From: Methylacidiphilum infernorum V4
GTDB lineage: Bacteria; Verrucomicrobiota; Verrucomicrobiia; Methylacidiphilales; Methylacidiphilaceae
NCBI RefSeq assembly: GCF_000019665.1
Contig: NC_010794.1
Span: 1,488,001 to 1,552,000, forward strand
Direction: 5' to 3'
DNA length: 64,000 bases
Position numbers and translations under genes: made by a program. The notes under the pieces are model-generated. The model worked only from the letters and a program-made list of their open reading frames with translations, did no database searches and was not told the DNA's origin. Below are positions 1 through 11,957 of this stretch, in pieces (positions within the stretch are counted from its first letter, which is position 1; each line of letters opens with the position of its first letter).

Positions 1-489
1 TATTCTACTATTTAAAAAAATACCATATTTGTTAAGTAATTTTTCTGTTTCATCATTTATCACAATCTCTACATTGGTAATATATTTTCCTTGATTTAAA
101 TATAACTTTTTGCATATAACTCCATTTATAGGTTTATCACTAAATGTATATATATTTTGATATGGTCTATTTTTATAGGCTATGGATATATTTATTGTTT
201 TATTTTCTAATATATTAGCTACTCCAATTATATCATACACTAATGTTTGCATCCCTACATTTGGGCTAATGTTACACATGTTTTTAATAAAACATATGCT
301 ATTGCTTGATATTATGTTTGCGGGATATATTTCAAAATGTGCTGCAAAATATTCATTTGTGATAAATCTGCAATCATCATTTATATCTTTAGCATATAAT
401 ATATTATAGCTATATATTATTGGTATAAATATGAATAATATATTAACATATGTTTTTTTTGCATATTGATATAACCTATCTATATACAT
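1..489 (-). CDS. Exported protein translationally coupled to pmoB (partial, runs off window edge)
   Basis: An uninterrupted reading frame of 163 codons runs from an ATG at 489 to the window edge. The ATG overlaps the pmoB stop codon (TAATG), so translation is probably coupled to PmoB. The N-terminus has basic residues, a hydrophobic stretch at about residues 15-30 and a likely signal-peptidase site after LYA, giving a periplasmic or envelope protein. After the signal, cysteines, methionines and a histidine are visible (C41, H52, C65, M70, C71, M78), but there is no recognised domain. The gene is very A+T-rich. Its position matches that of pmoD in other pmoCABD operons, where PmoD is an envelope copper-handling accessory protein. 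Assignment as PmoD is positional inference only; I cannot see a convincing cupredoxin motif, and the C-terminus, where PmoD has a membrane helix, is outside the window. Confidence 0.6.
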   Translation of the reverse strand, partial: MYIDRLYQYAKKTYVNILFIFIPIIYSYNILYAKDINDDCRFITNEYFAAHFEIYPANIISSNSICFIKNMCNISPNVGMQTLVYDIIGVANILENKTINISIAYKNRPYQNIYTFSDKPINGVICKKLYLNQGKYITNVEIVINDETEKLLNKYGIFLNSRI

Positions 490-1736
490 TACTCAAAAAC
501 AGGTACTACGAATTGATCTGCTATCGCTATAATATTTCTTCTTCCTTCTGTATCACTAAAGAAGAGTAGTCCTCCAAATCGTGAAGCTGTTTCTTTGTAT
601 ATGGTTGATAATCTTTCAACTTCCCACGCAGAACCTTGAGCTTTGACATGAAGTGTTTTTGTTTCACCAGCTAGAATAGGTTCAGACGGTGTAATTTGTA
701 ATTCTCCTCCGTTTACTTCCGGAGAATCAGAAGCCCACTGGTTGTTAGGTGCACTTGGATTTAGAAAGGCAACATTAGCCGTTTGAAATCTTTTTAAATA
801 GACTTTATCAGTACCTTTATTTGTAACTTGTAAATCAAAATCCAGGCTACGCTGTTGAACGTTATATGTTGCTTTGGTCACCTTAGCTTCTACAAAAGCA
901 GGTTCAGGAGCCAAAGGATCTATTCTAACGAATGTTTTCTGCAAAGGAACAACAATCGGAAATTGTTTTGATGTAATAAATGCACCGCCAAAGACAAGAA
1001 TCACCACTATAGCAAGGAACAAAAGACCAAATTGTGTATCTTTTTTTGTAATAAGTTCCTCTTCTTTTTCTAAATATGCTAGGCCTAGTCTTGGGGCTGT
1101 AGGTTTAAGTATCAGCCAATAATATAACCATCCTATTCCTAAAAACACCCATAACATTGACCAACCAAACGCTCTACTCAAGCCATAATTTTCTAAGTTT
1201 ACCGTCTGTCCTGTCAATGTTTTGATTATATATGTAAAAGGTGAATTGGAAGGATCTATAGCAACCTTGATTGAAGGTCCTACAATTGGGCCTATATCCT
1301 TTATGTTCATGGTTACACCAACGGGCCAATTTCCTGGTTGCCTAGCTGTAAGAACTTCCTTAAATTCATAGTTATCTCCTAATTTTATAATCATACTTGA
1401 AAATAGGGGTTGGCCGTTTACCACTGTTTCTTTACGTACAAGTCTTGGGCCTGGCTCAAAAAAGTTAATGTATCCAATACCTGAAAATCCTAGTTCATGT
1501 GGCCAAATAGGTAGAATCATTACCTTTCCAGTAACGACCAAATCTTCCCCAACTTTTAAATGATTTGTAGAAAATCTTACATCATAGAATTGAGCTGTCC
1601 TCATCCTCAGAATAGCTTCTTGTGCTCTTTCACCAATTCCAGATGAATATACCGGTGGAGCATTGATCAGCATCAATACCCCATAAATAATACTGATAAA
1701 CGTTAAAAATAATCCTTTAATGTTGTTATTTTTCAT
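489..1736 (-). CDS. pmoB: Copper membrane monooxygenase subunit B (PmoB/AmoB), verrucomicrobial pmoCAB3-type
   Basis: PmoB is the largely periplasmic subunit of particulate methane monooxygenase: two cupredoxin-like domains joined by two membrane helices. Here a signal peptide (about residues 1-31) precedes the N-terminal cupredoxin, which keeps family motifs such as RMRT, FYDV, GPRLVRKE and ARQPGNW. Membrane segments lie near residues 192-210 and 238-256, then the C-terminal cupredoxin. The residues aligning with the Methylococcus copper ligands are lost: the N-terminal His region reads SGIGE, TIHWYD has become TAQFYD, and the HVH motif reads PVG. Loss of these histidines is known for verrucomicrobial PmoB. 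The start ATG has GAGGG upstream. It is the third gene of the pmoCAB operon, 39 bp after pmoA, with the next gene overlapping its stop. The family is certain; the substrate (acetone/2-propanol rather than methane) is inferred from context. Confidence 0.94.
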   Translation of the reverse strand: MKNNNIKGLFLTFISIIYGVLMLINAPPVYSSGIGERAQEAILRMRTAQFYDVRFSTNHLKVGEDLVVTGKVMILPIWPHELGFSGIGYINFFEPGPRLVRKETVVNGQPLFSSMIIKLGDNYEFKEVLTARQPGNWPVGVTMNIKDIGPIVGPSIKVAIDPSNSPFTYIIKTLTGQTVNLENYGLSRAFGWSMLWVFLGIGWLYYWLILKPTAPRLGLAYLEKEEELITKKDTQFGLLFLAIVVILVFGGAFITSKQFPIVVPLQKTFVRIDPLAPEPAFVEAKVTKATYNVQQRSLDFDLQVTNKGTDKVYLKRFQTANVAFLNPSAPNNQWASDSPEVNGGELQITPSEPILAGETKTLHVKAQGSAWEVERLSTIYKETASRFGGLLFFSDTEGRRNIIAIADQFVVPVFE

Positions 1737-1775
1737 AATTTATCCCTCTTTTTATTTGTATACGTAGTTACAATA

Positions 1776-2525
1776 TTATATTTTCTTTACCCAACGATTT
1801 CTTGTAAATTGATCTCCTATCCACCAGAAAATTGCATATATGGCTATACCAACTACACCGCTAAAAAATATAGCCGGTCCTAAAGCTCCTCCTTCAAATG
1901 TACGTAATGTTCCGCTTTCTATCATTCTTAAATATTCTGGTATGGCAGACCGAACATAAGAAAATCCTATATAATCTGCTATACTCAAAGTTTGACCTAA
2001 AGCTTCAATTGGTTGATGAAATGGGGCAATCATTACCCAATTCGCCGGATAAAATGTCAAAGCAAAAGCATATGCGCCAAACAAATAAGTTAACAAAAGC
2101 TTCTTTGATAATAAAAGCACGCAATCAGCAGCTATTGCACAAGGTATTACGGTTTCTGGAAAGAGTTCATTCATTGGATAACTAAACCAACCCCACCAGT
2201 TAATATACCTTTCGAACCACTGCCATAGATTAATACCAACAGCACATAGTGTCATACCCATTGGTAGTCTAGCTTTAATCCAACAGGCTGACTGAACGCT
2301 GACCAACATTAACATGTAAGAAATAACTCCCAATATGGGAAAATAACGCCGATCTTTCCAATCAATCCAAAAACTCCAATCTCCTTCCAATAACGATTGG
2401 GATGCAAAGGTTCCTACCGTAACGGTCATTCCGATAATAACCCAAGCAACAAATTGTATTCTTTTTCCAATTTCCAATCCTTCCTTCTGCAATTCAGGGG
2501 AAGTTTTAATAGTCTGAGTTTGCAT
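1776..2525 (-). CDS. pmoA: Copper membrane monooxygenase subunit A (PmoA/AmoA)
   Basis: PmoA is a multi-pass membrane subunit of the (alpha-beta-gamma)3 copper monooxygenase. At 249 residues it has the usual length, with about seven hydrophobic segments. Family motifs are visible: GDWSFW.DWKDRR (about residues 48-60), PANW, PEYLRMIESGTLRTF (about 196-210) and a tryptophan-rich C-terminal helix. The region that reads NFVWPATF-like in methane-oxidising PmoA is changed here (MNELFPETVIP), which fits a divergent third-copy PmoA. A good ribosome-binding site (GAGGAG, seven bases before ATG) is present. The gene lies between pmoC and pmoB; the pmoC-pmoA spacer carries a strong hairpin. Family certain; PmoA3-type substrate specificity inferred from divergence and neighbours. 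Confidence 0.94.
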   Translation of the reverse strand: MQTQTIKTSPELQKEGLEIGKRIQFVAWVIIGMTVTVGTFASQSLLEGDWSFWIDWKDRRYFPILGVISYMLMLVSVQSACWIKARLPMGMTLCAVGINLWQWFERYINWWGWFSYPMNELFPETVIPCAIAADCVLLLSKKLLLTYLFGAYAFALTFYPANWVMIAPFHQPIEALGQTLSIADYIGFSYVRSAIPEYLRMIESGTLRTFEGGALGPAIFFSGVVGIAIYAIFWWIGDQFTRNRWVKKI

Positions 2526-2608: not shown

Positions 2609-3472
2609 TTACATTCCGGGTAACGTGTGTACCGGATTTGTGGCTTCCTCAGGATTTTCCATTGCTTCCGCAGCAGACATGCATTTTTCTCCAAAATAGG
2701 TTGCCTTTAAAACAGCAGCTATCCTTGGAAACATGTCAAAACCGTTGCCTAAAAACCATACAGCAGCCCATGCAAAGGGAACAAACGTCCAATGCAGCGG
2801 GGCAGCAAACCATTCTTCAAGTATCCAAGCACTATGTCCCCACTCATTTTCTCCAATTAATGGGATAAACATAATTGGCCAGGCCACTTCCATAACTAAA
2901 GGAAGCAACCACTTTTTACCCATTACAGGTAGCCTCGTTCGAGTAAGCATTAAACCTGCAACTCCAAAATTAATAAAAATTGGCCAACTCAGATAAAAAT
3001 TAAAAATATGACTTGGAGTAAACTCCGTATCTCTGACCATTGAAGAATGCCAAACCCCATCTTGCTCAACAAAAAACACAGCCCATACCAAAGCCCACGC
3101 ATATACTCCAAGAGTCAGAAGCCAATTTGAATACCATCTTTTTAGCTCCTCTCCTGGAGTTACTTGATCAAGATGTCTATCCCTATATACATACCATATC
3201 CATCCCCACGTTACAGCCCATATAACCACATTCATTATGGTTATACCCCAAAAAAGAGTCATCCAGTATTGCTGGAATTCTTGTGAGGTATAATCAATTC
3301 CTTTTGTTATAGCAAAAGCTCTTTGATAAAGCATACAAGCCCCATAAAAGAGCGATAATAAGATGCAATAGAGATAAAACCTCCAGTTATTGAAATATTC
3401 TTTTTTGGGAACAACTTCAATACTGGTCGTTACCTCCATTGCTCCTGCAGTTGCTATGCGTTCATTTGCCAT
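2609..3472 (-). CDS. pmoC: Copper membrane monooxygenase subunit C (PmoC/AmoC)
   Basis: PmoC is the membrane subunit that carries the copper sites now thought to be catalytic. This 287-residue protein keeps them. The Asp-His-His set of the CuC site is present (D138, H142, H155, spaced D-x3-H-x12-H in VEQDGVWH...FTPSH), as is the Asn-His-His set of the CuD site (N209, H213, H227 in NEWGH...APLHW). Six or so hydrophobic segments fit the family. A strong ribosome-binding site (AGGAGG) lies eight bases before the ATG. It is the first gene of the operon, divergent from the glyoxalase/GMC operon, with a sigma-54-like promoter about 57 bp upstream. Conserved metal sites with a ligand-free PmoB suggest an active enzyme whose chemistry sits in PmoC. 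Confidence 0.95.
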   Translation of the reverse strand: MANERIATAGAMEVTTSIEVVPKKEYFNNWRFYLYCILLSLFYGACMLYQRAFAITKGIDYTSQEFQQYWMTLFWGITIMNVVIWAVTWGWIWYVYRDRHLDQVTPGEELKRWYSNWLLTLGVYAWALVWAVFFVEQDGVWHSSMVRDTEFTPSHIFNFYLSWPIFINFGVAGLMLTRTRLPVMGKKWLLPLVMEVAWPIMFIPLIGENEWGHSAWILEEWFAAPLHWTFVPFAWAAVWFLGNGFDMFPRIAAVLKATYFGEKCMSAAEAMENPEEATNPVHTLPGM

Positions 3473-3528
3473 TAAGCACCTCCTATTTTATTTTTTCTCT
3501 ATGTGTTTGTTGCACACGATTTCTTTTG

Positions 3529-3544
3529 AGCATATTTTATGCCA
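3529..3544 (-). promoter_or_regulatory. Candidate sigma-54 promoter for pmoCAB
   Basis: Read on the minus strand, the sequence TGGCATAAAATATGCT has the invariant GG (-24) and GC (-12) separated by exactly ten bases, as sigma-54 (RpoN) promoters require. The -12 box is ATGCT instead of the consensus TTGCW. The predicted start is near 3518, giving a leader of about 45 nt that holds the AGGAGG site. Confidence rises because the divergent operon has a near-identical element (3727-3742). Confidence 0.5.
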
Positions 3545-3640
3545 ATCAAAAAAAAATATCATTTTATGTTGATAATTAGGGTAATACAAAAAATTGGCAA
3601 CTTTGATTACTTTACTTTTCATTTAATTTTTTAATATTGT

Positions 3641-3677
3641 TGCATAATGCATCATTTCTTATAGATATCTGCATCAT
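3641..3677. promoter_or_regulatory. Candidate activator-binding region between the divergent promoters
   Basis: A perfect inverted repeat TGCAT-A-ATGCA lies at 3641-3651, and the octamer TGCATCAT occurs twice (3648-3655 and 3670-3677), 22 bp apart, about two helical turns. It lies roughly 75 bp and 97 bp from the two -24 boxes, a sensible place for a sigma-54 enhancer-binding protein. Such short repeats can arise by chance in A+T-rich DNA. Confidence 0.3.
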
Positions 3678-3726
3678 CCGCTACATTTTATATATAAATC
3701 TCTAGTTATTTTTCTTTTATTATTTC

Positions 3727-3742
3727 TGGCATATTTCTTGCT
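3727..3742 (+). promoter_or_regulatory. Candidate sigma-54 promoter for the acetol/methylglyoxal operon
   Basis: TGGCATATTTCTTGCT fits the sigma-54 consensus TGGCAYR-N4-TTGCW closely: GG and GC are ten bases apart and the -12 box TTGCT is complete. The predicted start, about 3753-3755, leaves a short leader with the AGGAG site at 3763-3767 before the glyoxalase gene. No enhancer-binding regulator gene is visible in the window. Confidence 0.55.
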
Positions 3743-3772
3743 CAACAACTTAGAAAAACAAAAGGAGTCATG

Positions 3773-4165
3773 ATGGTACATCGTTTTCTACACACCAGGT
3801 ATCGAGTATCCAACCTAGAAAAAGCCGTATCCTATTTTGTAAATGTTCTTGGATTGCAAGAAGTAGGGAGAATTACTTCTCCAAGGGGATCAAAATTGGT
3901 TTTTTTAAAGGCTCCGGAAAGCCAAGAACTTCTCGAACTTTGTGAATACCCGGGAAGTGGTAATGTGGTTGTTCCGCCTGACCTTACGCACTTGGCTTTT
4001 TCGGTACCTGATCTTAAAGAAGCGCGTATCCGATGTGATAAAATGGGATGGCCATTTACGGATGAAATTCAGCAAGCAGAGAATGGACAATACTTTACTT
4101 TCATTGATGCTCCTGATGGCTATGAAATTGAGCTCATAGAAGAAAAAAAGGATAATCCTTCTTAA
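3773..4165 (+). CDS. gloA: Glyoxalase I (lactoylglutathione lyase), VOC family
   Basis: A 130-residue VOC-fold protein whose closest remembered relative is bacterial GloA. All four metal ligands are visible, numbered from the upstream ATG at 3770: H8 in FLHTRYRV, E56 in LLELCEY, H74 in LTHLAFSV and E121 in GYEIELIEE. GloA isomerises the hemithioacetal of methylglyoxal and a thiol cofactor to the lactoyl thioester. Two ATGs are adjacent; AGGAG at 3763-3767 is better spaced for the second (3773) than for 3770. It is the first gene of the operon with the GMC dehydrogenase and D-lactate dehydrogenase, so it is likely to detoxify and channel methylglyoxal made from acetol. Conserved ligands make enzyme function likely; the in vivo thiol cofactor is unknown. 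Confidence 0.82.
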   Translation: MVHRFLHTRYRVSNLEKAVSYFVNVLGLQEVGRITSPRGSKLVFLKAPESQELLELCEYPGSGNVVVPPDLTHLAFSVPDLKEARIRCDKMGWPFTDEIQQAENGQYFTFIDAPDGYEIELIEEKKDNPS

Positions 4166-4198
4166 AAAACAGAAGTTGCAGCTAATCTGCTTTCAATT

Positions 4199-4780
4199 AT
4201 GAATATTTCACGCAGAAAATTCTTCTTTCTCTTTGCAGGAGCAATCTTTTTTTTAGAAAAGAAATTATCTTTTGGCGCATGTTGCAGTGCTGACAAAACT
4301 TTTTTGGCCGCTTCTGCGCTAACCGAAGTCGGTTCCTCAAATAATCAAAAGGCTGATTTCCTCAATCCTATTCAACAAAAAAATCTTGAAATGTTTATTC
4401 GTGTCGTTGTCCCCCATCAAGGAGAAGCCTTTGATCGAGCAAAAAAAATAACATTTGATCGAATCGTTCAATCCTTTTCACAGGGTCCTCCTCCATTTGA
4501 ACAAAACAAGTTGAAATCCTATCTTGATCATCTTCAAAACTCAGCCCAGGACCTATTTAAAAGAGATTTTTACCAACTTTCTCTTTCAGAAAGCACCCTT
4601 TTAGTCAAGAAAACCGAACAGCAGCAAGTTTTCCAAGATCTTCTTAACCAAGTTCTTGCCTATTTTTATAATGACCGAGGCGTCTGGACCGCCCTTGGTT
4701 ATCCTGGGCCATCAATGAACGAAAACGGCAAATACCTTGGGGGTTACGTTAACAAGGGGTTTGATGAACTTGGTTGGTAA
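4199..4780 (+). CDS. Gluconate 2-dehydrogenase subunit 3-type small subunit, Tat-exported
   Basis: A 193-residue protein of the gluconate 2-dehydrogenase gamma-subunit family, which binds a GMC flavoprotein and escorts it through the Tat system. The N-terminus has a twin-arginine motif (SRRKFFF, residues 4-10) followed by a hydrophobic stretch. The C-terminal part has the family signature of WTALGYPGP and a GGY near the end. It is followed 30 bp later by the GMC oxidoreductase, its expected partner. The GMC protein has no signal of its own, so this subunit should carry it across the membrane. The expected third partner, a cytochrome c beta subunit, is absent from the operon; the haptahaem-type cytochrome at 9561 is a possible but unproven substitute. 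Confidence 0.8.
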   Translation: MNISRRKFFFLFAGAIFFLEKKLSFGACCSADKTFLAASALTEVGSSNNQKADFLNPIQQKNLEMFIRVVVPHQGEAFDRAKKITFDRIVQSFSQGPPPFEQNKLKSYLDHLQNSAQDLFKRDFYQLSLSESTLLVKKTEQQQVFQDLLNQVLAYFYNDRGVWTALGYPGPSMNENGKYLGGYVNKGFDELGW

Positions 4781-4810
4781 ATCAAAAAAGAAACGAAAAG
4801 CGATCTCTTT

Positions 4811-6388
4811 ATGGCTACTATTTCAAATGATACTTTTGATGTATGTGTGATAGGAACGGGAGCGGGCGGAGGAAATTTAATCCGAGAACTGTGTCTTCAA
4901 GGGGTAAAGGTTGTCGCACTTGAAGCAGGCCCTCGACTCGATCCTGAAAAAGATTTTGAAAATGATGAATGGGCAATGTTCTTGAAAACAGCTTGGTTGG
5001 ATCCTCGTGAAACCCGCGGAAAAGACATAACCGGTCTTCCCGCTTGGACGTGTAAAACGGTAGGAGGAACAACTCTACATTGGGCCGGAGCTTCATTGCG
5101 CATTCAACCCTGGGAATTTCAAGTCAAATCCATCTATGGAAAGCTTCCAAAAGCGAATCTTGCTGATTGGCCTATTAGCTATGAGGAACTTCTTCCCTAT
5201 TATGAAAAAGCGGAAAAGCTTCTTGGTGTCTCAGGCCGTGTTATGCCATTGCAACCGGGGAATACCAATTTTTTAGTGATGAAAAAAGGGGCTGATAAAC
5301 TTGGCATTAAGGCTAAAGCGGGTTTTATGGCCATTAATAGTATTCCCTATGATGGGAGACCCCCTTGTGATCAATGTGGTTTTTGCTTTCAAGGATGTAC
5401 CATTAAAGCCAAATGGAATGTCTTATATGAAGCCATCCCCAAAGCAGAGCAAACAGGAAACTTGGATTTAAGACCCCAATGTCAAGCTCTTCGGATAGAA
5501 ACAAATACGCAGAAAAAAGCCCACCGTGTTGTCTATGCTGATGCCACAGGTAATCTTCATTCCGTAAAGGCAAAAGTTATTTGTGTAGCTTGTAACAGTA
5601 TTGAAACGGCAAGACTTTTGTTAAACTCCGAATCTTCACAATTTCCCCACGGTTTAGCTAATGGCAGTGGAATGGTAGGCAAAAATTACATGCGCCATCT
5701 CACCGCCTCCTCTTATGCTATTTTTCCTAATCCTGTTCATGCCTACAAAGGGATAACAATGATGGGGCTTATTGAAGATTTTGCCAATAATGAGCCCAAA
5801 AGAGGTTTTGTAGGAGGATTTCATCTTGAAACCATTATGCTTGGGCCAGCCTTTTTATCCGTTTTTATTAGACCAGGTCCAAAGACTTCCTCCCCTGATG
5901 CTCTTGCATTATGGGGAGATCCTCTTAAGAACCTTATGGAGAATTACACCCATGTTGCGGGCATGTGGATCGTGGGTGAAGATATCCCCCAAGAAACGAA
6001 TGGGGTTAGTCTTCATAAAGAAAAAAAAGATCGCTTTGGGATGCCTATACCCGTCGTTACCTTTAACGATCATCCCAATGACATAAAAATGAGAGAGTTT
6101 GCATGGCAAAAAGCCAAAGAAATTTATGAGGCTGCCGGAGCCATAAAAGTATTCAATACACCTCCCTATCCAGCCACCCACAACTTAGGAACATGTCGGA
6201 TGGGAACCAATCCCGATACTTCGGTCACCAACGGTTATGGGCAATGCCACGAGGTAAAAAATCTCTTTATTTCAGATGGAAGCTTATTTCCTACCGGAGC
6301 CTGCGAAAACCCGACTCTTACCATTTCCGCTTTGGCCATTCGTCAAGCTGAATACATTATTAAGGAGATGAAAGCCAACAGACTTTAG
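4811..6388 (+). CDS. GMC-family FAD-dependent dehydrogenase (proposed acetol dehydrogenase)
   Basis: A 525-residue GMC oxidoreductase of the gluconate/glucose dehydrogenase alpha-subunit type. The FAD-binding Rossmann motif GTGAGGG is near residues 16-22 with the ribose-binding acid in LEAGPR. A cysteine cluster C-x2-C-x2-C-x3-C (CDQCGFCFQGC, about residues 186-196) resembles the Fe-S cluster motif of FAD-dependent glucose dehydrogenase catalytic subunits. The catalytic His/Asn pair is in THNLGTCRMG and ENPTLT near the C-terminus. Between the small subunit and D-lactate dehydrogenase genes, and divergent from pmoCAB, it is well placed to oxidise acetol (hydroxyacetone) to methylglyoxal. Family certain; substrate inferred from context and from published work on acetone-growing verrucomicrobial methanotrophs. 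It lacks its own signal peptide and probably hitch-hikes with the Tat-targeted small subunit. Confidence 0.88.
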   Translation: MATISNDTFDVCVIGTGAGGGNLIRELCLQGVKVVALEAGPRLDPEKDFENDEWAMFLKTAWLDPRETRGKDITGLPAWTCKTVGGTTLHWAGASLRIQPWEFQVKSIYGKLPKANLADWPISYEELLPYYEKAEKLLGVSGRVMPLQPGNTNFLVMKKGADKLGIKAKAGFMAINSIPYDGRPPCDQCGFCFQGCTIKAKWNVLYEAIPKAEQTGNLDLRPQCQALRIETNTQKKAHRVVYADATGNLHSVKAKVICVACNSIETARLLLNSESSQFPHGLANGSGMVGKNYMRHLTASSYAIFPNPVHAYKGITMMGLIEDFANNEPKRGFVGGFHLETIMLGPAFLSVFIRPGPKTSSPDALALWGDPLKNLMENYTHVAGMWIVGEDIPQETNGVSLHKEKKDRFGMPIPVVTFNDHPNDIKMREFAWQKAKEIYEAAGAIKVFNTPPYPATHNLGTCRMGTNPDTSVTNGYGQCHEVKNLFISDGSLFPTGACENPTLTISALAIRQAEYIIKEMKANRL

Positions 6389-6413
6389 TCCTTATTGGGT
6401 TCTTTTTATCATT

Positions 6414-7805
6414 ATGAATCGTCTTGTTCATCGAGATAGAGCTCTAAAGAGCTTGACGGAATATTTTCCTAAAGACTGTCTTTTGTTGCAAAAAGAAGAT
6501 CTGATTCCTTATAGCTTTGATGCTACGGCCATTTTTCAGCGCTTGCCTTTAGCCGTCGTTTTCCCTCGCCATGTTGAAGACATTCTTTGGCTCCTTCAAT
6601 GGTCTAAATCAAACCACGTTTCTATCATTCCCCGCGGATCAGGAACGAGTTTATGCGGTGGAGCGGTTCCTGCAGAAAACTCGATAGTGCTTTCCATGGC
6701 TAAATGGACAAAAATCCTTGAAATTGATCCGGCTAACCTTACCCTTTTGGTAGAACCGGGCGTTACGACCCAGGCTATCCAACAGGAAGCGGAAAAATAC
6801 TCGCTTTTCTACCCTCCAGATCCAGGCTCTTACAAAATTTCCACCATAGGCGGCAATATCGGGCATAATTCTGGAGGCATTAGAGGATTAAAATACGGTG
6901 TCACTCGAAACTACGTGATGGGTATGGAGGTAGTCATCCCTAGGGGTCAAGTTTTATGGCTAGGGAATAAGTGCATGAAAGACTCTGCGGGATACTCTTT
7001 GAAAGATCTTTTTATCGGTTCTGAAGGAACCCTAGGTATTGTGACAAAAATATTGCTTCGACTCCTCCCAAAGCCCAAGGCCAGGCGGCTTATCGTTGCT
7101 TCCTTTCGTTCCCTAGAGAAAGCATCCGAAGCTTCCTCAGCGATTATCGCTTCAGCATTGATCCCAAGCGCAATGGAATTCCTCGATCAAAAAACCATCC
7201 ATTGTATTGAAGAATACTCTGCTGCAGGCTTCCCCAAGGAAAGCGAAGCGGTTTTGCTTATTGAATCCGACGGACACCCCGAAGCAGTACAGGAAGAAAT
7301 TATACAAATCTCCAACGTCATCAAAAAGCATGAGCCCTTAGAGATTAAGATCGCCGAAGATTCAACTCAGCAAGAAAAACTCTGGAGTGCAAGAAAAGTT
7401 GCCTTTTCTGCTCTTGCAAGAAAAGCCCCCACCGTCCTTTTAGAAGACATCACTGTTCCAAGAAATGTTTTAGCTCAAATGATTCGCCAAATTCAAAAAA
7501 TTTCTCGAGAAAATGGAGTCGAAATAGCGGTTTATGCACACATGGGAGATGGGAATCTTCATCCGGTATTCTTAGCCAATGAAAAAGACAGCCAGTTAAT
7601 GACAAAAATTAACAAGGCCATGAAAGAGGTTTTCCTTTATGCTATTGAACTCAATGGGACGATTACGGGTGAACATGGAGTAGGGTTAGCAAAGAAAGAG
7701 TTTCTTCCTTTCCAATATTCAAAAGAGAGCCTTGAACTCCTTAAAGAAATAAAAAACGTTCTCGATCCTGACCGTCTCTTAAATCCTGGAAAAATCTTCG
7801 ATTAA
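6414..7805 (+). CDS. glcD: FAD-linked D-2-hydroxyacid dehydrogenase (D-lactate dehydrogenase / GlcD type)
   Basis: A 463-residue protein of the GlcD/D-lactate dehydrogenase family. The N-terminal FAD_binding_4 domain shows PRGSGTSLCGGAVP (about residues 80-93) and GGNIGHNSGG. The C-terminal FAD-oxidase domain has the metal/substrate motif HMGDGNLHP and the signature GEHGVGLAKKEF. It oxidises D-lactate or glycolate to pyruvate or glyoxylate, passing electrons to its Fe-S partner encoded six bases downstream. In this operon D-lactate from the glyoxalase route is the most economical substrate; glycolate cannot be excluded by sequence alone. No signal peptide or membrane helix is seen, so it should be cytoplasmic or membrane-peripheral. 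Confidence 0.88.
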   Translation: MNRLVHRDRALKSLTEYFPKDCLLLQKEDLIPYSFDATAIFQRLPLAVVFPRHVEDILWLLQWSKSNHVSIIPRGSGTSLCGGAVPAENSIVLSMAKWTKILEIDPANLTLLVEPGVTTQAIQQEAEKYSLFYPPDPGSYKISTIGGNIGHNSGGIRGLKYGVTRNYVMGMEVVIPRGQVLWLGNKCMKDSAGYSLKDLFIGSEGTLGIVTKILLRLLPKPKARRLIVASFRSLEKASEASSAIIASALIPSAMEFLDQKTIHCIEEYSAAGFPKESEAVLLIESDGHPEAVQEEIIQISNVIKKHEPLEIKIAEDSTQQEKLWSARKVAFSALARKAPTVLLEDITVPRNVLAQMIRQIQKISRENGVEIAVYAHMGDGNLHPVFLANEKDSQLMTKINKAMKEVFLYAIELNGTITGEHGVGLAKKEFLPFQYSKESLELLKEIKNVLDPDRLLNPGKIFD

Positions 7806-7811
7806 CTTTGA

Positions 7812-9155
7812 ATGAACAACATCAGTTCCAACTCTTCTCTTTCAACCTTGGATCGGTCTATTCTGCAAAAATGCATCCACTGTGGAATGTGCCTGCCTAG
7901 CTGTCCCACCTACCAAGAAACAAAAATTGAACGCAACAGTCCACGGGGCAGAATTTCTTTAATGAAAGCTATCGCGGAAAACGCCATGGAACTCACACCC
8001 GAATTCGCCCATGAGCTTTATTTTTGTCTTGGTTGCCTTGCCTGCCAGTCAGCCTGTCCCGTGGGCGTGGATTATAAAACCCTTTTTGAAGCCTCAAGAC
8101 AGGATATAGAAAAGTCTAAAGTATTGAATAACTTCTTTAGGCTGACGGCGAGAACTTTACTGATTAAATTTTTGTTCCTTTCTCCGACTAGGCTCAGAAC
8201 CTTTGGTAAGCTGCTTCGGCTGTTCCAGAAAACGGGATTGGACAAATGGATAAACGGTTTTCCCTTCCTGCCCCAAAAACTCAGAGAAATGGCGCTTGAA
8301 CTTCCTCCCATTGCTCCCCGCTTTTCTTTTGAACTTATTTCTTCCCATGAAATCCCCTCCGGCAATAAAAGCCTATATAAAGTCGGTTTGTTGACGGGTT
8401 GTGTGCAAGATTTAGTCTTTCCAAACATTAACAGGGACACTGCTGATGTCCTTCTCCATAATGGCTGCGAAGTCTTCTGTCCACCCAGGCAGGGATGTTG
8501 CGGTTCTCTTCATGCCCATAATGGAGAAATTGAAACGGCCCAACAGTTAGCCAAGGCATTGATCTCCGCCTTTCCCGTGGAACGACTCGACGGGATCATC
8601 ACCAACTCCGCGGGTTGCGGCTCTCATCTCAAGCACTTTGCAGAGCTTTTCCCTAAAGGTTCGGAGTGGAGAAAAAAGGCGGAAAAGTGGGACCAAAAAG
8701 TCTACGACATTCATGAATGGTTGGTAAAGATTGGTTACAGCATTCCAAAGCCGACCTCTTTAACTATCCACTCCATCCGGGTCACCTACCATGATGCCTG
8801 CCATCTTTGTCATGGCCAAAAGATTAAAAATGAGCCTAGAAAAATACTCAAGTCTTTACCTAACGTGGAGTTTGTTGAACTCAAAGATGCAGACAACTGT
8901 TGCGGGAGTGCGGGGATATATAATATTCTACAGCCAGCAATGGCTAAAAAGCTCCTTTTAAAAAAAATAGAACGAATCAAGGAAACAACAGCTTCGGTCG
9001 TATGTACGGCAAATCCAGGTTGCCTTCTTTTCATACAAAAAGGATTAAGAGAACAAGCATTAAATCAACAACCCGTTCATCCCATATCCCTCTTGGCCCA
9101 TTACTACCGGTTGACTAATCAAGATTCTCTTGAAGTTCCCCAATCTAAAGTTTAA
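7812..9155 (+). CDS. glcF: Fe-S subunit of D-lactate/glycolate dehydrogenase (GlcF type)
   Basis: A 447-residue Fe-S protein of the GlcF/LutA family. Two [4Fe-4S] motifs are at the N-terminus: CIHCGMCLPSCP and CLGCLACQSACP. Two CCG-type cysteine-rich domains follow (GCCGSLHAHNG and DNCCGSAG), each with preceding HD/C elements. It forms the electron outlet for the FAD subunit just upstream and probably passes electrons to quinone. The spacing to the upstream gene (six bases) shows tight coupling. It is the last gene of the operon; no clear terminator follows. Function as a complex is well supported; D-lactate as substrate is inferred from glyoxalase and GMC neighbours. Confidence 0.88.
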   Translation: MNNISSNSSLSTLDRSILQKCIHCGMCLPSCPTYQETKIERNSPRGRISLMKAIAENAMELTPEFAHELYFCLGCLACQSACPVGVDYKTLFEASRQDIEKSKVLNNFFRLTARTLLIKFLFLSPTRLRTFGKLLRLFQKTGLDKWINGFPFLPQKLREMALELPPIAPRFSFELISSHEIPSGNKSLYKVGLLTGCVQDLVFPNINRDTADVLLHNGCEVFCPPRQGCCGSLHAHNGEIETAQQLAKALISAFPVERLDGIITNSAGCGSHLKHFAELFPKGSEWRKKAEKWDQKVYDIHEWLVKIGYSIPKPTSLTIHSIRVTYHDACHLCHGQKIKNEPRKILKSLPNVEFVELKDADNCCGSAGIYNILQPAMAKKLLLKKIERIKETTASVVCTANPGCLLFIQKGLREQALNQQPVHPISLLAHYYRLTNQDSLEVPQSKV

Positions 9156-9560: not shown

Positions 9561-11957
9561 ATGAAAAAAACAACAAATAGTCTGCTTGCCCTGTTAATTT
9601 TTCCCTCTTTTATTGCCGCCGCCGCTTCAGTTACGGATTACAACCCCAGTCCCCCTTTTGAACTAAGCCAACTAAAACCGGTAGAACTTAAAGACGAAAT
9701 CAACAAAAAGACCATACAAGCTTATCAGCCAAAAAATCCCTACAACATTTTCATCAACTATGAGCTTGGAATGCATTGCGTAGGTTTTGACATTTCCTAT
9801 TGCTGTGTCATTCCCCCTTATAACTCTATCCAGGCTCAAGCGGTAGAATCGGGGATGGATGGGAAAAAACCCAAGCTTCTTACTCCAGAAGATAAAATCA
9901 AGCTCTACTACTATTTGAAAGACAACAGCTATTCGGAAGGGAACAAGATGAGGTATTGGTCTGTCCTTAAAGATGTCAACGGGAATGGGAGCATGTCCGA
10001 TCCCGGTGATAACATGGCCAATTACGTATGGAAGCACCTTTTCATTTACAAGGACCTGGAGGGAACCCTTCCCAAGGACTGGTCGATAAAGAAAAGAATC
10101 TTTATCGGCAAAGATATCATGGTTCCCGTTGATGCCGGGCCTTCTGGTAAACCTTTAGCCGGCGGCTACCTTGATTACGCGGGGGACAATGGAGGAAACA
10201 TCGTCTTTACCGATTCGATGATCCCGGAGGTCAAAAATATCGCCATTAAATTAACCGCGTCCAATATTTGGGATGCCTTGGGACTTCCTTTAACCGCTTT
10301 TTATGACTCGACGAGGAAAGGGACGATAAGGACAATTACCGATAGAGACTTTCAACCTTACCAATATTCCACCGTCCAACTCCACGACGCTTCGGGAAAT
10401 CCAATCCTTGTCGAAGGGAAAAAAGTTGAATTTTTTGGTACCAACCCGGTAGATATTCCCAATTGTGTCATGTGCCATTCCGGCGAGGGTAAGGCAGCCA
10501 AGCTCTCAAGGGCCTCTGGCTTAACCCTCTTCGAAAAAGAATACGCGTATTGGAAAAAAAATTATCCCGATGAATCCGATTACATGGCCAGGCTTTCCTC
10601 TTCCTCGATCAATCTTCTTGAACTTCACGATAAGATGTTCAAAACGACTTTTCTCAAAGACTATAATCCGGATGCTTCCTCAAACAGGCTTGGCATAGTG
10701 GGATCCGTAAATTGTGCAGACTGTCATGGAGATAATGTTTCAGGGAACCTCCAAGAACCAAGGCCGGGAACAACAGGCTATAAAGCCATAAAAGGGAGGC
10801 CGCTAACCGAGGCCATACACGCCATTCATGCCAATTTCCTTTCCGACATGAATGATAAGGCGGGTAGGACGGTAAGTTGTCAAGCTTGCCATCCCACCCA
10901 CTGGCAAAATCCATCCATGAATAATTTCGAAACCAACCCTTATCAAATTATAGATTCAAGCGGTAACAACAAGTATGCCAACTCCGACCAAAGAAAAGCC
11001 GGAGGGGGATGCTACCTCCGGAGAGATGCGCACACCAATCCGGCAGTCAAACCTCCCTTCTTTTTGAACGACCTAGGAAAGTGGTATTTATACAACGTGA
11101 GTATGAAGGATGAAAATGACCAACCCATTACGGAAATAAGGGGACTTACCTGCACAAATTGCCATAACCAGCTTTCCAACGAACTTTACAACTACGATGA
11201 CTTGGACAACGTCGTTACCCAAGATGGAAAGACCTTGAGGAACAAACCCGTAGAAGAAATCGTCAAGACCCTTGCCGGCAACGATCTCCAAAGGTTCCAG
11301 GACATGGCCGATCCAAGAATCAAAAACGGGAACAATCCTCTCTATGAATTTTACAACAACCATAAGGGAGCAGTCCTCGTTAAAGCTACAAAAGCGGCCA
11401 ATGGCAAACTCAAACTCCTTGCATGGAATGCCAAGGAAGGTAATCCTGTTCCTTACGATAGTGCTTCCGGAGGGAGCGATTGGTGGCTTGCCGCGGCTGA
11501 ACCTAAATGTGCCAGCTGTCATGCCGCTCCCTTTGTTGAGAGTGAGGGAGGAAAGTATTTTCCCGTCGATCAACCCCGCAAATATGCCCTATACCGATTT
11601 TCAAAGGCTCATGGAAAGATCGCTTGCCAATCCTGCCACGAGTCGATTCATGGACTTTATCCCGTTAGAGCGGATGGCGAAGACAAATCCATAGACCTGA
11701 CCACCTACCAGCAAGCCCTGCAATATTCCGCTGATGGCCGCTATGCAGGACCCGTTAGCTGTTCCGCTTGCCATACCGTTAATGGGAAAGGGGTACCTGT
11801 ACAACTTTTAGGAACGGAATACGAAAACGATTACTGGGCTTCGGTCGTCCTCCTCCATTTCATGAGGGAAGGAGATGAAAAATTATCCATAAAAGACCTG
11901 GTTCAGAAATATCCCTATAGTAAGTCGAGGCAAATCGTTTCCGAAAGTTGGAAGTAA
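9561..11957 (+). CDS. Secreted multihaem c-type cytochrome (seven CxxCH motifs)
   Basis: A 798-residue exported protein with a signal peptide ending near residue 20. Seven canonical haem-c motifs are visible at about residues 302, 385, 440, 531, 650, 689 and 734 (CVMCH, CADCH, CQACH, CTNCH, CASCH, CQSCH, CSACH). The first 300 residues have none but contain a conserved-looking cysteine motif, GMHCVGFDISYCCVIPPYN (about 70-88), and acidic stretches that might bind calcium. Another odd cysteine element, CYLRRDAH (484-491), may be a lost or atypical haem site. It should work in the periplasm or at the surface in electron transfer. No close family name is recognised. A ribosome-binding site (AGGAAT-AGGAAA) precedes the ATG. 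It follows the acetol operon in the same direction, so it may accept electrons from the Tat-exported GMC dehydrogenase, but that link is conjecture. Confidence 0.85.
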   Translation: MKKTTNSLLALLIFPSFIAAAASVTDYNPSPPFELSQLKPVELKDEINKKTIQAYQPKNPYNIFINYELGMHCVGFDISYCCVIPPYNSIQAQAVESGMDGKKPKLLTPEDKIKLYYYLKDNSYSEGNKMRYWSVLKDVNGNGSMSDPGDNMANYVWKHLFIYKDLEGTLPKDWSIKKRIFIGKDIMVPVDAGPSGKPLAGGYLDYAGDNGGNIVFTDSMIPEVKNIAIKLTASNIWDALGLPLTAFYDSTRKGTIRTITDRDFQPYQYSTVQLHDASGNPILVEGKKVEFFGTNPVDIPNCVMCHSGEGKAAKLSRASGLTLFEKEYAYWKKNYPDESDYMARLSSSSINLLELHDKMFKTTFLKDYNPDASSNRLGIVGSVNCADCHGDNVSGNLQEPRPGTTGYKAIKGRPLTEAIHAIHANFLSDMNDKAGRTVSCQACHPTHWQNPSMNNFETNPYQIIDSSGNNKYANSDQRKAGGGCYLRRDAHTNPAVKPPFFLNDLGKWYLYNVSMKDENDQPITEIRGLTCTNCHNQLSNELYNYDDLDNVVTQDGKTLRNKPVEEIVKTLAGNDLQRFQDMADPRIKNGNNPLYEFYNNHKGAVLVKATKAANGKLKLLAWNAKEGNPVPYDSASGGSDWWLAAAEPKCASCHAAPFVESEGGKYFPVDQPRKYALYRFSKAHGKIACQSCHESIHGLYPVRADGEDKSIDLTTYQQALQYSADGRYAGPVSCSACHTVNGKGVPVQLLGTEYENDYWASVVLLHFMREGDEKLSIKDLVQKYPYSKSRQIVSESWK

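Follow-up and report, generated by a model that had tools for sequence, protein, structure and literature searches.

Predicted divergent sigma-54 promoters and a linked AcoR-type activator at the acetone monooxygenase cluster of Methylacidiphilum infernorum V4

AcoR-type sigma-54 activators near genes for propane and acetone oxidation are already known in kind, and several described systems resemble the locus discussed here in part. In the MimR system, induction of an oxygenase by acetone or a C3 product has been proposed, as we propose below, whereas the oxygenase is soluble and the host mycobacterial; mycobacteria are not known to have rpoN. The mimR gene lies beside mimABCD (PMC8394569). 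The soluble methane monooxygenase operon of Methylosinus and Methylocella is associated with RpoN and an adjoining gene for a sigma-54 regulator, MmoR (PMC6778391), a sigma-54 regulator of this enzyme being credited to Stafford (2003) in PMC10992012. It shares with our locus a methanotroph oxygenase and an adjoining sigma-54 regulator gene, but the enzyme is of the soluble di-iron type, proteobacterial and outside the pMMO family. A copper membrane monooxygenase is encoded by the hmoCAB operon of Mycolicibacterium chubuense NBB4, which is preceded by a gene for an AcoR-like regulator (PMC8784404). We found neither a G-x-FTG-x loop nor a Sigma54_activat match in that protein, both of which the Methylacidiphilum activator keeps, and this makes it unlikely, as judged from its sequence, that the NBB4 protein works with sigma-54 in the usual way. 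In Methylocella silvestris, deletion of the GMC-annotated gene Msil_1641 abolishes growth on acetone and causes acetol to build up on propane (PMC7364539).

The pmoCAB3 genes of Methylacidiphilum have long been puzzling, being silent in all methanotrophic conditions tried. Physiological tests indicate that their product, PMO3, is an acetone monooxygenase, and C3 substrates (2-propanol and acetone, and in strain IT6 also acetol) strongly induce the cluster in strains IT6 and SolV; by RNA-seq the induction is 14- to 40-fold in IT6 (pmoCAB3) and 20- to 330-fold in SolV, both strains other than V4 (PMC8630023, PMC12235487). For IT6, Awala et al. (2021) used BPROM to predict promoters, of the sigma-70 type only, separately for pmoC, for pmoA-pmoB and for pmoD onward; the text of that paper, which we searched for a regulator, names none (PMC8630023). 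Nor did the literature searched yield a regulator assigned to the C3 induction of pmoCAB3.

The DNA analysed, here called the window, is the 64,000-base stretch from 1488001 to 1552000 of the single-contig genome (2,287,145 bases) of V4, a thermoacidophilic methanotroph. V4 was compared with the genomes of four other Methylacidiphilum species (G001-G004); G001, G003 and G004 are mutually close, so that the five genomes amount to about three independent lineages. The genes pmoC3 and gloA diverge across a 297-base spacer (3473-3769; Table 1). The minus arm runs in the order pmoC-pmoA-pmoB-pmoD-ppsA-255-aa orf, its last three genes lying past the window edge; gloA, at the head of the plus arm, is of the VOC family. 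Gene order within each arm is identical in all five genomes. The pmoD-ppsA-orf255 stretch of V4 (window ~1-1000 and the preceding 4 kb; L070:4001-9000) has 26-30% GC, against 35-45% nearby, and identity to the relatives drops to 42-64% for V4 pmoD and ppsA, as against 91-97% for pmoA and pmoC. Beyond the other arm, 3' of glcF, V4 encodes a 798-aa protein (window 9561-11957) with several CxxCH motifs, resembling a multihaem cytochrome, of which no counterpart was seen in 20-kb stretches of the other four species; in three of these, glcF is followed at this place by the activator gene described below.

Table 1. Features of the cluster in V4 (window coordinates, except where genome positions are given)
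Feature	Position	Strand	Remarks
pmoA3 + pmoB3	489..2525	-	ORFs
pmoC3	2609..3472	-	ORF; heads the acetone monooxygenase arm; 91-92% identity with relatives
Sigma-54 -24/-12 element (predicted) of pmoC3, TGGCATAAAATATGC	3530..3544	-	Predicted start ~3518
Central block A, presumed activator site, TGTTGCATAATGCATCAT	3638..3655		12/18 columns invariant, five species
Central block B, presumed activator site, TCTGCATCATCCGCTACAT	3668..3686		14/19 columns invariant, five species
Sigma-54 -24/-12 element (predicted) of gloA, TGGCATATTTCTTGC	3727..3741	+	Predicted start ~3753
Acetol arm	3770..9155	+	ORFs, family assignments; gloA, gluconate-dehydrogenase-3-like, GMC oxidoreductase, glcD, glcF
AcoR-type activator gene, 659 aa	genome 1482569-1484548 (L014:4569-6548)	+	3.5-5.4 kb before window base 1

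It is highly likely, in our judgement, that this spacer comprises two divergent sigma-54 promoters and one activator site, at which a dedicated AcoR-type regulator opens both arms. Candidate elements were scored against the consensus TGGCAC-N5-TTGC (10 specified bases), of which GG-N10-GC is the invariant part. In V4 the pmoC element matches at 8 and the gloA element at 9 of the 10 positions, each with GG-N10-GC present. These are the weakest of the five species; the pmoC element is perfect in one relative (10/10, TGGCACGCATTTTGC) and the gloA element in three. An earlier note had read two back-to-back sigma-54 elements with GG-N10-GC into these 297 bp and had suggested an alignment across Methylacidiphilum: both elements lie where it placed them, and the alignment keeps the GG and GC positions of both in all five species. 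Not one of 4000 dinucleotide shuffles of each of the five spacers matched both elements at comparable positions. Invariant columns make up 21/30 within the two elements and 85/267 outside them (p = 6e-5, five genomes, an optimistic value because three of the five are close relatives). Upstream regions of the other V4 pmoC genes, outside the C3 cluster, carry no sigma-54 element at a score of at least 8/10.

The distance from element end to start codon in the five species is 57-68 nt for pmoC and 25-28 nt for gloA. In V4 the predicted leaders are ~46 nt for pmoC and ~17 nt for gloA, or ~20 nt for the latter should its second ATG (3773), the one that matches the start of the relatives in the alignment, be the initiation codon; the leaders of ~45 and ~20 nt given in the earlier note are close to these values. 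The pmoC3 mRNA has a short hairpin close to its predicted 5' end (window 3502-3518, minus strand). Its stem of 4-6 pairs is found in the minimum-energy fold of four species with differing arm sequences (GUGU/ACAC in V4, UGCGUA/UACGCA in Yel, UGCAUA/UAUGCA in G002); the G004 leader folds differently, though GCGU/ACGC could pair. The hairpin may serve to stabilise the message.

The spacer can also be read as BPROM was used to read it in IT6, with sigma-70 promoters driving the arms and the sigma-54-like sites incidental. That prediction is published (PMC8630023), and a sigma-70-like site with 9 of 12 matches does overlap the V4 pmoC element; three such sites were found, however, where chance alone would give 2.2, and the TAAAAT of the overlapping site coincides with variable positions of the sigma-54 element and is missing from the other four species. 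Sigma-70 promoters would, moreover, leave unexplained both the invariant GG and GC and the persistent linkage of an activator gene. We consider this reading improbable.

Between the two predicted sigma-54 promoters, a conserved block (3638-3686) fits an upstream activator site. Its two parts have 26 of 37 columns invariant, against 59 of 230 elsewhere (p = 2e-7, five genomes, again optimistic for their relatedness). The common pattern is GTTGCATAnnGCnnCAT followed by TGCATCATCTGCAnCATT, the V4 copy of the second part being the most degenerate. The block B motif, ATGCATCATCTGCnnCAT, occurs in four species as one exact copy per genome, solely in the spacer; the V4 copy has 2 mismatches, and matches with two mismatches are scattered elsewhere. 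Measured from the predicted gloA start, the block centres lie ~76 and ~107 bases upstream; from the predicted pmoC start the figures are 128 and 159 bases. Such distances are in the usual range for enhancer sites. We infer from this position, from the conservation and from the absence of exact copies elsewhere that the linked regulator binds the central block. The proposal in the earlier note of an activator site between the promoters is retained, and the two copies of TGCATCAT that it described are exactly 22 bp apart in V4, at 3648 and 3670; the inverted repeat TGCATAATGCA that it chose as the site (3641-3651 in V4) was rejected, only two of the five species keeping it.

The earlier note had proposed a search elsewhere in the genome for rpoN and for an acetone-type enhancer-binding regulator. 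Both exist. The rpoN gene is single copy in V4 and in eight relatives; its V4 product matches PF04552 (E 2.4e-59) and has the RpoN box ARRTVAKYR near the C-terminus. The five genomes contain 36, 39, 33, 43 and 36 copies of the pattern TGGCAY-N5-WTGC (187 in total), an enrichment in each of them over the reversed pattern, with 8, 3, 2, 5 and 6 copies (24 in total). Several of the V4 sites are directly upstream of ORFs, and many others are within genes. Around another sigma-54 activator gene of V4, a 12-kb stretch (genome 449156-461230; L021-L025) contains five sigma-54-like sites, which suggests a second sigma-54 regulon.

The regulator is the only protein of more than 600 aa among the seven V4 proteins with full sigma-54 activator domains. 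Each of the five genomes has exactly one activator of AcoR size, and it is linked to the cluster in all of them, in three arrangements. In V4 it comes 3' of the 255-aa orf and is convergent to the pmo arm; in G002 it lies past that orf and shares the strand of the pmo arm; in G001, G003 and G004 it follows glcF in convergent orientation. That the linkage outlives rearrangement is good evidence for a function shared with the cluster. The protein has a sigma-54 AAA+ domain (PF00158, E 3.5e-62) and a Fis-type HTH_8 domain (E 4.6e-11). All five orthologues have GTFTGS as their contact loop, against the canonical GAFTGA; the FTG core is kept and two positions differ. A Peribacillus homologue with the same loop is encoded near a consensus sigma-54 element, so the variant need not mean a loss of function. 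Pfam GAF gave no match in the activator or its orthologues; in a profile comparison with GAF-bearing homologues from alphaproteobacterial clusters of the propane/acetone type, the sensor region aligned over its whole length with 99.5% probability. A single-sequence structure prediction of this region was discarded (mean pLDDT 35). The aligned regions upstream of the activator gene show no evident -24/-12 motif, only an AT-rich block being common to them.

With six other activators in V4, sigma-54 promoters at the spacer might instead be run by one or several of these, the linked AcoR-type protein serving otherwise. The number of full activator domains leaves room for such a scheme, as does the nature of the case for binding at the central block, which is one of inference. 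The linked protein is nevertheless the sole AcoR-size activator of each genome and stays beside the cluster through rearrangement, the exact block B motif is confined to the spacer in four genomes, and homologues of the protein sit in clusters of the propane/acetone type. Control by another activator is in our estimate even a little less probable than the sigma-70 reading, and control by the linked regulator is preferred.

Alphaproteobacterial plasmids encode full-length homologues of this regulator, with ~30% identity. In Methylocella tundrae (L080), Skermanella mucosa (L084) and Bradyrhizobium sp. CB82 (L085), the homologue is clustered with a soluble monooxygenase and VOC/GMC genes of the acetol type, and the monooxygenase gene has 10/10 sigma-54 elements ~160-340 nt ahead of it; the GMC proteins of these clusters are 53-55% identical to that of V4. 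The plasmid clusters differ from that of Methylacidiphilum in having a soluble di-iron monooxygenase rather than a copper membrane enzyme, in the contact loop of their regulators (GAFTGA rather than GTFTGS), and in that no comparable shared divergent spacer was seen in the three of them. Not all members of the regulator family have a monooxygenase nearby, as none was present in the stretches viewed around homologues on Beijerinckia and Peribacillus plasmids, and none is listed for the Acidibrevibacterium homologue, which lies beside hydantoinase genes with VOC/GMC genes ~13 kb off. The resemblance hints at a shared ancestry of the clusters as whole units; the AcoR family being large, with not all homologues near a monooxygenase, it does not amount to proof. 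The closest homologue found (35%) is that of the Peribacillus plasmid (L082:6473-6941), divergent from an amidohydrolase gene that is preceded by TGGCACAGTATTTGC.

The AcoR-type regulator would sense a C3 metabolite (acetone, 2-propanol or acetol, or else a compound formed from one of these) and would bind the central block between the promoters. From there it would contact both sigma-54 polymerases through DNA looping and spend ATP to open both promoters. With one site and one regulator opening the two promoters, the pmoCABD3-ppsA-orf arm and the gloA-GMC-glcDF arm would rise together. One dedicated regulator thus probably switches on both halves of the acetone pathway. Against this picture stand the variant contact loop, the negative Pfam result for a GAF domain, the weak elements and degenerate block B of V4, and the origin of the expression data in other strains.

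It is also rather likely, though less so than the promoter arrangement itself, that the C3 sigma-54/AcoR regulon of Methylacidiphilum holds a copper membrane monooxygenase where its counterparts elsewhere are built around a soluble di-iron enzyme. We found no literature linking sigma-54 to the control of pmoCAB3 or of copper membrane monooxygenases, in a search that took in few subscription papers and is, for that reason, no proof that earlier reports are absent. If the proposal is true, PMO3 would be the first known case of sigma-54 control in the pMMO family, and such control would explain its silence on methane. The cluster now has a specific candidate regulator gene, two predicted promoters and a candidate binding site, which together make a single switch that is directly testable, and the promoter pair may be of use as a C3-inducible one for thermoacidophiles. 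The arrangement suggests how one copy of pMMO became separated from methane metabolism.
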